NCBI GenBank assembly: GCA_902791985.1 | Contig: CADAYD010000016.1 | Coordinates: 1-38,665, forward strand | DNA from: an uncultured bacterium | GTDB taxonomy: Bacteria; Cyanobacteriota; Vampirovibrionia; Gastranaerophilales; Gastranaerophilaceae | Direction of reading: 5' to 3' | DNA length: 38,665 bases | Shown here: piece by piece, positions 23,955-25,844 of the stretch | Layout of the letters: every line of letters starts with the position of its first letter | Position numbering within the stretch: position 1 is the first letter of the stretch | Translations under genes and position numbers: made by a program | The notes under the pieces: generated by a model | Told to the model about the DNA's origin: nothing | Databases searched by the model: none | What the model saw: only the letters and a program-made list of their open reading frames with translations

Positions 23955-25274
23955 TTAAGCCTGAGAGTTAAGCTTTGCTTCAACATCCTTTTTAACCTGA
24001 TAATCTTTATCACCACCTAAAAATCTAACCGCAAGCATTATAGCAGGCGCCAAAATTCCTAATGCCCCGATACAAGCACCCATATTCTTTATGACCGATG
24101 CTCTTTTCAACTTTCTTACTGATTTAAAGAATGTATCTAAGTCTTGTCCGGATTCTTCATACTGGCTCAAAAGTTTTTCAATCTTTTCCCCAACCCCTTT
24201 TAAGTCATCTAAATCAATATATTTTCTTGTATCAACTGTTGTTGGATGCTTTTTAAAGAAAGAAGTCTTGATTCTTGGGATTACATCTGATTCTTTTGCC
24301 ATTTTTACAATAAGATTTTCATTATTTTCAGGATTAACAGCAAATTTATACATATCTGCACCGGAAGAACTTTGAGACTTAAACGCTTCTAATTGAGATT
24401 TAATTGTACCGTTTTTGAACGCATTTTTGAAATCTTCATTTTCAATTACCCTTGCATCAAGATCGATTGATTTTTTGTGAATCTTTTCAGAGTGTTTTTC
24501 AAGCGCCTTTGCAAATAATGGACCGGCAAAATACATAAAGGTCCAGAAACTACCCTCTTTTATTGCATATCCCATAAAATCTTGAGGATTTCTTGAATGA
24601 GAAAGTCTTTCGCCTGTTATAACAGCATCCACAATCATAAGATTCTTCACCGGATTGAACATAAAATCCTGTAATCCTCCGGTGAATGATATCTGGTCGT
24701 TTCTCTTGCTGCTATGAACAGCAGAAAATTTTGATGAGAAAGGAATATATCCGGAACCAAAACTTTCTGATATCTTCTTTTTATTTTCAATATACTCTTT
24801 TTTAATCTGACCTTCAGTGTATTTATGTCTGAACTTTGTCAAACCGAAATAAGATAATGCAGTCAATGCCGTTGAAGCAACAAACTTTGCCATCGTCAAA
24901 GTCTTAAATAATTTTTGTTTTTTGGCAGCATTTTTAAGATTTTCTTTAATTTCTTTTGATGGCGCAAATTTTTTAGCTAAAGTCAAAATTCTTTTATCTT
25001 TGAAAATCCTTACATCAATTTCAGAATCCAATTTAAAATACTTAAATAAAGTTTTATCAAGAATATATTTATAAGCAGGAATACCGCCAAGCCAAATAGC
25101 CTGAGTTCCAAACTCGTCTATGAATCTGTCTTTTCCTTCATGTTTGTCGCCAGCAATATAAGAAGCTGCCGTAAGACCGCAACTGTTAGCGACGTCTTTT
25201 ATACCCAGTGGGATAAGTGAACTGTTATTACCTAATGTTGAATATATTGTGCTTGCTGTTAATTTTGAAATCAT
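23955..25274 (-). CDS. Hypothetical membrane protein, 439 aa
   Basis: Not recognised. Likely membrane segments are at about residues 125-143 (MAKFVASTALTALSYFGL), around 250 (FWTFMYFAGPLFA) and 395-417 (NMGACIGALGILAPAIMLAVRF). Between these are long Lys-rich helical stretches. A segment QISFTGGLQDFMFNPVKNLM lies near 210. The C-terminus is charged (DYQVKKDVEAKLNSQA). The ATG overlaps the stop of a 34-codon ORF upstream (ATGA), suggesting translational coupling if that ORF is real. The RBS AAAAGGAAAAGGAA also lies directly before the ATG. Function unknown. Confidence 0.65.
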   Translation of the reverse strand: MISKLTASTIYSTLGNNSSLIPLGIKDVANSCGLTAASYIAGDKHEGKDRFIDEFGTQAIWLGGIPAYKYILDKTLFKYFKLDSEIDVRIFKDKRILTLAKKFAPSKEIKENLKNAAKKQKLFKTLTMAKFVASTALTALSYFGLTKFRHKYTEGQIKKEYIENKKKISESFGSGYIPFSSKFSAVHSSKRNDQISFTGGLQDFMFNPVKNLMIVDAVITGERLSHSRNPQDFMGYAIKEGSFWTFMYFAGPLFAKALEKHSEKIHKKSIDLDARVIENEDFKNAFKNGTIKSQLEAFKSQSSSGADMYKFAVNPENNENLIVKMAKESDVIPRIKTSFFKKHPTTVDTRKYIDLDDLKGVGEKIEKLLSQYEESGQDLDTFFKSVRKLKRASVIKNMGACIGALGILAPAIMLAVRFLGGDKDYQVKKDVEAKLNSQA

Positions 25275-25375
25275 TTCCTTTTCCTTTTGCAGTCAATTCC
25301 CTCTAACTCTGAGAGTGATTTGTAGAGAAACCTTGTAAGCCTTACAAATGCGAGGATATGAGCTGCCTTAATCAT
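25271..25375 (-). CDS. Possible 34-aa ORF coupled to the 439-aa gene
   Basis: ATG at 25375, 34 codons, with a TGA overlapping the next ATG as ATGA. The peptide begins MIKAAHILAFVRLTRFLY and ends with a basic KRKRK tail. The RBS before it is weak. It is supported mainly by the overlap geometry, so it could equally be a chance frame in a leader. Confidence 0.3.
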   Translation of the reverse strand: MIKAAHILAFVRLTRFLYKSLSELEGIDCKRKRK

Positions 25376-25380
25376 GTGTA

Positions 25381-25467
25381 TTACAAGCCCCAGACTAAAT
25401 TCATAAATTTGACTATTGGGGCATTAGCCTTAATGATTAAGTTTCGTCGTAATTTCATATTATCCAT
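25381..25467 (-). CDS. Possible 28-aa ORF, Arg/Lys N-terminus
   Basis: ATG at 25467 with RBS AAGAGGTG about 9 bases upstream, 28 codons, TAA at 25381-25383. The peptide starts MDNMKLRRNLIIKANAPIVK and ends in a hydrophobic FMNLVWGL. It shares the DNA word AATTACGACG and the residues LRR with the 18-codon ORF at 25636-25692 and stands in the same orientation. Confidence 0.35.
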   Translation of the reverse strand: MDNMKLRRNLIIKANAPIVKFMNLVWGL

Positions 25468-25563
25468 AATACTTTTCACCTCTTGATTAAGTTGCGTAAA
25501 AATATTAATTGACTAAATTTTTAAATATTTTTACTTTTGTTAATAATTTATTTAAAAAGGGTA

Positions 25564-25596
25564 ATAAAAAAGAGCCTTTTAAAACTCAGGCCCTTT
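25564..25596 (-). terminator. Terminator of the 18-codon unit
   Basis: On the minus strand AAAGGGCCT / AGGCTCTTT forms a 9-bp stem with one G-T pair, followed by TTTTATT. Confidence 0.75.
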
Positions 25597-25625
25597 TAAA
25601 TCTTTATACCAAAACGACTTAGCGT

Positions 25626-25644
25626 TTGTTTTAATTTAAAACAA
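25626..25644. repeat. Perfect 9-bp palindrome at the end of the 18-codon ORF
   Basis: TTGTTTTAA-T-TTAAAACAA overlaps the stop codon of the small ORF. With the terminator just downstream it gives the small transcript two tandem hairpins, or a symmetrical protein-binding site. Confidence 0.6.
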
Positions 25645-25692
25645 GCCTTCTAATCTTCGTCTGCTACGTCGTAATTGCTTTGTCATTTTCAT
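25636..25692 (-). CDS. Possible 18-aa Arg-rich peptide in its own transcription unit
   Basis: The frame MKMTKQLRRSRRRLEGLF starts at 25692, or as 16 codons at 25686, which has better spacing from the AAAGG upstream. Five Arg and two or three Lys make it strongly basic. It is enclosed by a promoter with -35, -10 and TG extension (25712-25740) and a terminator (25564-25596), so the transcript would be only about 140 bases. It might be a leader peptide, a small protein or simply the 5' part of a small RNA; I do not recognise it. Confidence 0.4.
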   Translation of the reverse strand: MKMTKQLRRSRRRLEGLF

Positions 25693-25711
25693 AACCTTTT
25701 CTACAAGAGTA

Positions 25712-25740
25712 ATACTAACATGTATCATATACTTTTGCAA
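25712..25740 (-). promoter_or_regulatory. Strong promoter for the 18-codon unit
   Basis: On the minus strand: TTGCAA (25735-25740), a 17-base spacer ending in TGT, TAGTAT (25712-25717). The -35 is in GCTTGCAA and lies inside an inverted repeat TTTTGC-N6-GCAAAA (25733-25750). Confidence 0.65.
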
Positions 25741-25844
25741 GCTCGCAAAAATATTAAGAATTATTAAATCATTAAAAAAAAATAGGCAATTTTTATTAAT
25801 ATATAAACTTTATATATATAAGAGATATTATTCGGAGTATAAAA

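Follow-up and report, generated by a model that had tools for sequence, protein, structure and literature searches.

In the trp and his attenuators of enterobacteria, a short open reading frame (ORF) carries its control codons in tandem near the start, and the leader RNA forms terminator, antiterminator and protector helices. Attenuators and arrest peptides have mostly been studied in a few model bacteria. The upstream ORF (uORF) of Bacillus subtilis vmlR is described as encoding Met-Ile-Asn, sensing antibiotics and preceding the gene of an ABC-F factor (PMC9226507). In the Salmonella speF leader, two consecutive early Arg codons of orf34 sense arginine (PMC6386406), and the Salmonella mgtCBR leader is reported to contain tandem attenuators with Pro codons and ATP as signals (PMC3641672).

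We identified a leader with similarities to these systems on the minus strand of the window (the whole 38,665-nucleotide stretch of DNA analysed here, from an uncultured bacterium of the order Gastranaerophilales). The preliminary description regarded the unit at its 5′ end as self-contained. It is instead the first module of a leader with two uORFs, which, judged by its sequence, has the anatomy of a leader-peptide transcription attenuator. The first ORF (uORF1) very probably serves as an attenuator of the downstream gene for a 439-aa protein, and the attenuator is probably combined with a second ORF (uORF2) that would act as a regulatory checkpoint. The leader has the tandem codons, the three helices and the stop codon beside the antiterminator arm of the trp and his type but differs in its regulated gene (an orphan with no known link to the amino acid of the control codons), in its second, hyperconserved ORF and in its phylum. 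With vmlR, as that leader is described, it shares the three-helix set, the position of a uORF inside the first of these helices and, ahead of the gene, a further layer of control proposed to be translational (PMC9226507). The speF leader likewise has Arg-Arg early in an upstream ORF before one gene, but its reported Rho-dependent termination, RNase G, DUF2618 peptide and ornithine decarboxylase set it apart (PMC6386406). The mgtCBR leader also has two short ORFs, one of them reported to read a codon-specific tRNA shortage, but its Pro and ATP signals, genes and sequences are different (PMC3641672). Two leader peptides in one leader, as here, are described for ermB, in which antibiotics induce a methyltransferase gene by translational attenuation (PMC8274638). 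The leader is thus outside the vmlR, speF and mgtCBR families, from which it differs in gene, peptides and termination factor or signal.

The promoter, ribosome-binding site, 18-codon frame, palindrome and terminator named in the preliminary description are all present on the minus strand. Promoter P1 (25712..25740), as read in the window, has TTGCAA (25740-25735), a 17-nt spacer and TAGTAT (25717-25712) with a TG extension. "Near-consensus" was a generous term for this match (8/12 plus TG), and P1 is absent from the results of a promoter scan with a cut-off of at least 9/12. The inverted repeat reported around the promoter spans the -35 element but is imperfect (13-nt arms, 85% complementary), and neither this repeat nor the exact 9-bp palindrome over the uORF1 stop (25644-25626), a subclade-specific feature, is general among relatives. 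A Shine-Dalgarno-type AAAAGG precedes uORF1, its AGG 2 nt from the first ATG and 8 nt from the second. The 18-codon frame of the first ATG (25692-25636) exists, but relatives start at the second ATG and yield the 16-aa uORF1 MTKQLRRSRRRLEGLF-stop (25636..25686). The module is thus predicted to present a short ORF, with a conserved start and a conserved CGA-CGN codon pair as control codons, directly after a promoter. It ends in an intrinsic terminator hairpin (25595-25570; 25566..25595 with the U tract) that an automatic terminator scan left out because its loop exceeds the length set by the rule. The folding energy of the unit is not beyond chance expectation (z -0.87), and conservation was therefore used as the criterion instead.

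The preliminary description had staked its reading on conservation in relatives, and the element is indeed conserved. When 40 related genomes were searched with the DNA, many of those in the genus proved to have copies that could be aligned, and a protein search matched the 439-aa protein in 46/46 genus genomes (orthologues and more distant paralogues taken together). We examined the upstream DNA of 40 genus genomes, 39 of them readable (the remaining one had 2 nt). The motif GGCTTGTTNTA[AG] precedes the same gene by 165 to 639 nt in 36 of the 39 readable leaders and occurs as a variant in two others (G007 and G010), bringing the element to 38/39; it was not found in the 421 nt of leader of G048. 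This conservation, rather than the folding energy, supports the early impression that the unit was too organised for accident. The same gene follows, on the same strand, every leader examined (39 genus leaders and 16/16 distant loci), and the genes upstream differ between relatives, which shows that the linkage is with the downstream gene. A sequence-only model searched against 30 genomes gave one strong match in each of 17/19 genus genomes and nothing convincing beyond the genus. Rfam at gathering scores matched only a tRNA in the whole window, its covariance models (T-box included) did not match 25250-25800 even when E values up to 1 were allowed, and in the open-licence PMC literature we found nothing on this leader or on the order.

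An automatic search of 82 leaders, drawn from the genus and other genera, detected uORF1 and the terminator in 66. Leaders shorter than 400 nt (G019 and L101) and two repeats of others (L094 of G009 and L097 of G053) had been dropped before the analysis of the pairing arms. The 16 leaders left unused were G048, G051, G044, G021, L099, L100, L109, L124, L127 and L129-L135. Ten of them were inspected by eye: six carry the element (G021, G044, G051, L124, L129 and L130) and four showed none (G048, L099, L100 and L109). L127, L132 and L133 have only the terminator of the preceding gene and a short uORF2, a short form that L131, L134 and L135 share.

Five arms were defined in the RNA of the first module: A, taken from CGAC in uORF1; B, located at the uORF1 stop; C, which follows B and precedes the terminator; and D and E, which make up the terminator itself. 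In the window, A (CGACGTAGC, 25663..25671, codons Arg-Arg-Ser) pairs with its anti-antiterminator partner C (GCTAAGTCG, 25615..25623). Arm B (GGCTTGTTTTAAA, 25635..25647), which lies over the uORF1 stop and is near-invariant in the genus, pairs with D (TTTAAAAGGGCC, 25589..25600), the arm common to the antiterminator B:D and the terminator D:E. When arms were swapped between species (n=66), cognate duplexes were more stable than swapped ones for A:C (-14.19 versus -9.92 kcal/mol, z -12.6), B:D (-14.73 versus -11.84 kcal/mol, z -12.5) and D:E (-16.23 versus -11.31 kcal/mol, z -14.8), a comparison in which 4 nt are common to the C and D windows and the choice of D:E depended in part on the terminator search. 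Each cognate value was reached by 0/5000 permutations, a control that, like the shuffles, leaves the relatedness of the sequences in place. The four control pairings gave nothing comparable (z of +0.6 for A:D, -1.8 for B:C, +0.1 for A:B and +2.5 for C:D). The three helices also co-vary among the other genera (A:C -8.7, B:D -8.8, D:E -8.7) and within the genus (A:C -6.4, B:D -3.9, D:E -8.8), with 1/5000 permutations reaching the value of B:D in the genus. RNAalifold recovered the terminator alone (7 pairs) from the genus alignment, a result explained by the invariance of B, the shortness of A:C and the impossibility of displaying alternative helices in one structure; the swap test of cognate arms was used in its place. 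B:D and D:E are mutually exclusive and A:C disfavours B:D. The leader thus combines an exclusive terminator and antiterminator with an anti-antiterminator that overlaps the ORF. These co-varying exclusive helices and the constant downstream gene support the leader-peptide attenuator, one of three roles proposed in the preliminary description.

Full-length equilibrium folding favoured the terminator in all ribosome states (about 10-11 pairs), which implies that the switch must be kinetic. With an assumed ribosome footprint on CGA-CGN, B:D was predicted to form before E emerged in 66/66 leaders, compared with 30/66 without a ribosome; the 0/66 obtained with a ribosome at the stop is a direct consequence of masking B. 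We infer a model of translation, readthrough and direction of the response. Transcription would begin at P1, and uORF1 would be translated while the polymerase makes A-B-C-D-E. A ribosome that reads CGA-CGN undelayed would reach the stop and cover B, leaving D:E to terminate transcription. If uORF1 were untranslated, A:C would form, B:D would be disfavoured and transcription would again terminate. A ribosome slowed on CGA-CGN would instead cover A and leave B and C free, B:D would form before E is made, and the polymerase would continue into uORF2 and the gene.

The selected features of uORF1 are its RNA and its codon pair, not its peptide. All 36 exact elements have an ATG-started frame with Arg-Arg (Arg-His in two), and codon 6 is always CGA and codon 7 CGT, CGC or CAC in 25 ungapped genus sequences. 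Synonymous changes account for 16.8% of codon differences against 16.2% in a column-shuffle null, as computed on the 25 uORF1 of exact length rather than on all 38. Furthermore, the invariant GGCTTGTTNTAR is out of frame or past the stop in 5/36 genus leaders (GGCTTGTTTTAA lies in another frame in G015, G021, G044 and G051, and the frame of G024 stops ahead of it). Both observations argue against the basic micro-protein of the preliminary description, and the synonymous-change check that it had suggested thus gave no sign of peptide constraint. The CGA-CGN pair is kept in other genera. CGA comes first in the Arg pair in 66/66 uORF1, a figure biased by the choice of uORF1 partly through a CGAC/CGAA/AGACG motif. 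The letters of the pair also form arm A, which makes codon choice and RNA pairing inseparable at this site.

Several variants of the 5′ end were seen among relatives. In other genera (L114, L118, L120, L125, L136 and others), the distance from the end of a TTTACA-16/17-TATAAT-like promoter to the ATG of uORF1 is often 6-9 nt, a spacing that suggests that uORF1 is the start of a leaderless mRNA in many of them. An apparent tRNA gene (tRNA-Glu by eye) lies directly upstream of uORF1 in L092, L119 and the G051 leader (L027), in which the promoter of the tRNA may also drive the attenuator.

Between the terminator and the regulated gene lies uORF2 (MDNMKLRRNLIIKANAPIVKFMNLVWGL-stop, 28 codons, 25381..25467, minus strand), whose aligned set ends in an invariant NLxWGL-stop. 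A frame with a uORF2-type end motif is present in 76 of 81 loci (the window genome and 80 others), six times as a 15-codon form. uORF2 extends to other families of the order: its profile matched 131/146 order genomes with E up to 1, the weakest of these matches not being significant. Sixteen distant matches, from strong to weak, all immediately precede a relative of the gene, and 15 of these frames end in WGL-stop (one is broken). Selection acts on the peptide: over the final 16 codons, synonymous changes make up 72.4% of the codon differences in frame (null, 21.7%), compared with 12.2% and 6.2% in the other frames, based on 58 distinct sequences with the shorter forms left out. Conservation is concentrated beside the stop, with a near-invariant core of KANAPIVKLMNLIWGL, and the N-terminal half is variable. 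The codons after the Arg-Arg pair (arm X, CTTAATCAT, 25433..25441) pair with the bases just past the stop (arm Y, ATGATTAAG, 25367..25375), and this fourth helix also co-varies (z -10.3). We do not rely on the result for a Y:Z hairpin, the windows of which overlap. No Pfam family matched uORF2 in a scan of 30 members, hence no DUF2618, and no NCBIfam family matched it either.

uORF2 could serve as a second, translational checkpoint, at which the tandem CGA codons can slow the ribosome, the NLxWGL-stop end may stall it and X:Y would change with its position. The peptide-level conservation lies close to where an arrest site would be, and on conservation and position we consider the chances that uORF2 is an arrest peptide to be even. 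Such a candidate class could be tested in a cell-free system. A functional microprotein, for example one that partners the membrane protein or is secreted as a signal, would also account for the strong peptide-level selection and the near-invariant KANAPIVKLMNLIWGL core. We nevertheless regard this alternative as somewhat unlikely, because the 15-residue versions (MNKHSKKLMNLKWGL) end 4 nt before the gene, conservation sits near the stop beside a variable N-terminal half, CGA-CGA is preferred, the X:Y helix spans the ORF and uORF2 is broken in two lineages that retain the gene. The WGL codons of these 15-codon frames contain a GGGG that may act as the ribosome site of the gene. The early in-frame stops were seen in L096 (about 2855-2945) and L189, with the downstream gene intact. 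Three leaders have uORF1 and lack uORF2. uORF1 and uORF2, both with an RR...GL-stop layout, may have arisen by duplication.

The regulated gene (23955..25274, minus strand) codes for a mostly helical orphan protein of 439 aa. In the samples searched, its family is found only in Gastranaerophilales. It is present in 84 of 194 genomes sampled from the phylum, all 84 in the family of the window (f1); of the genomes without a match, 20 were listed by name, one of which (G132) belongs to f1, and 90 more were not. The loci fetched also include distant members, from families f4 to f7 of the order. Among 57 homologues, Pfam and NCBIfam gave no consistent family match, with no ABC-F, methyltransferase, efflux or other resistance family and no ornithine decarboxylase. 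Of the speF/orf34 combination, neither DUF2618 (scanned for in uORF2, uORF1 of the window being too short for a scan) nor ornithine decarboxylase was thus found at this locus. PDB sequences yielded no confident match, and a Foldseek search of solved folds with the predicted model (helical, pLDDT 87.4, pTM 0.80) had a best E of 0.37. The CydC chain of CydDC (best VIA Z 6.3, 187 residues, 6.8 Å) was rejected because it is within the range of unrelated helical proteins. The hydrophobic helices of the model suggest that the protein is probably in the membrane. The only long stretch of low confidence covers residues 171-199 (window 24678-24764, minus strand), with an ISFTGG motif at its end. The same genome has two more distant relatives (G000:C27:3015-4235 and G000:C1:34344-35144); strong uORF2 matches occur once per genome, and these paralogues therefore seem to be without this leader. 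In viral contigs, 151 pattern stretches were found and no relative was confirmed. The leader would thus guard a gene family unnamed in the databases searched, and offers a handle on its role, in an order whose members live in the gut and rumen and have been seen mostly through metagenomes.

The codon preference is clearest in uORF2, which was collected without selection for a CGA motif. CGA opens its Arg pair in 70/70 sequences and CGA-CGA occurs in 64/70 (25444..25449 in the window), and the other Arg codons of uORF2 are AGA (45), CGC (11), CGT (2) and CGA (0). By comparison, CGA makes up 43 of 369 Arg codons in 32 genes of the window and is followed by CGN in 1/43. The CGA-CGA of uORF2 lies outside the supported core of the X:Y helix, which favours a decoding role there. 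We rejected the idea that this CGACGA pairs with arm C of uORF1, as C varies (by eye) where CGACGA is constant. CGA, CGC and CGT are all read by the ACG (inosine) tRNA, and the genome has one tRNA-Arg each with ACG, TCT, CCG and CCT (loci examined among 43 tRNA matches). We infer that the signal could be a shortage of charged tRNA-Arg(ACG), a proposal for which we see equal grounds for belief and doubt; another cause of slow CGA decoding would be an alternative. The 439-aa gene has no known link to arginine. Whatever the signal, the leader is a natural case of CGA-CGN codon-pair choice kept in two separate small ORFs. More tentative, and in our view rather doubtful, is the full combination of a uORF1 tuned to CGA-CGN and one tRNA-Arg(ACG) with a uORF2 of a new arrest class, which would check first how these codons are decoded and next the growing peptide, ahead of the synthesis of an order-specific membrane protein.

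Instead of arginine, the attenuator could sense ribosome-targeting compounds, with the antiterminator set free when a drug stalls the ribosome on uORF1. The RRSRR of uORF1 contains the R-x-R pattern, a macrolide stall motif, but R-x-R is not conserved in other genera, in which only CGA-CGN is. vmlR, as described, follows the same logic of anti-antiterminator, antiterminator and terminator (PMC9226507), but no resistance family, ABC-F and methyltransferases included, was matched by the protein encoded downstream. The locus thus shows no downstream gene of the kind that antibiotic-resistance attenuators (vmlR and erm) control, and a drug sensor is unlikely, although the 439-aa product could be a resistance protein of a new type.

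A (G)CAATTAA box (25502..25512, minus strand) between the terminator and uORF2 may be a second promoter or some other element acting in cis. CAAT occurs 15-75 nt 5′ of uORF2 in 72/78 leaders (median 46 nt). A TTnA lies downstream of the box at constant spacing, and the box is present also where uORF1 is missing. In ten of 82 leaders, uORF2 (in some its short form) is present but no uORF1 was recognised, which indicates that P1 is not the sole promoter everywhere. If the box is a second promoter, the attenuator may add to a basal supply rather than act as the sole gate. The first module could then be an independent terminated sRNA or dual-function RNA that happens to lie beside a gene driven from the GCAAT box, as its own promoter and terminator, the constant distance of the box from uORF2 and the occurrence of uORF2 and the gene without it would allow. 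However, B:D co-varies and is exclusive with the terminator, a feature that a free sRNA does not need, and there is one strong copy per genome, always ahead of the 439-aa gene. A free sRNA is therefore very unlikely, and the dual-function RNA of the preliminary description gives way to control in cis, to which the switch architecture and the fixed downstream gene point. A chance assembly of promoter, ORF and terminator has next to no probability despite the unremarkable folding energy and mediocre promoter match, as it is refuted by the conservation across the genus and order and by the co-varying helices of the arm-swap test.

Repeated CCCTCACCCGAATTTCTAA-type stretches, perhaps a small mobile repeat, lengthen the leaders L005/L023, L116 and L122 between the terminator or uORF2 and the gene.
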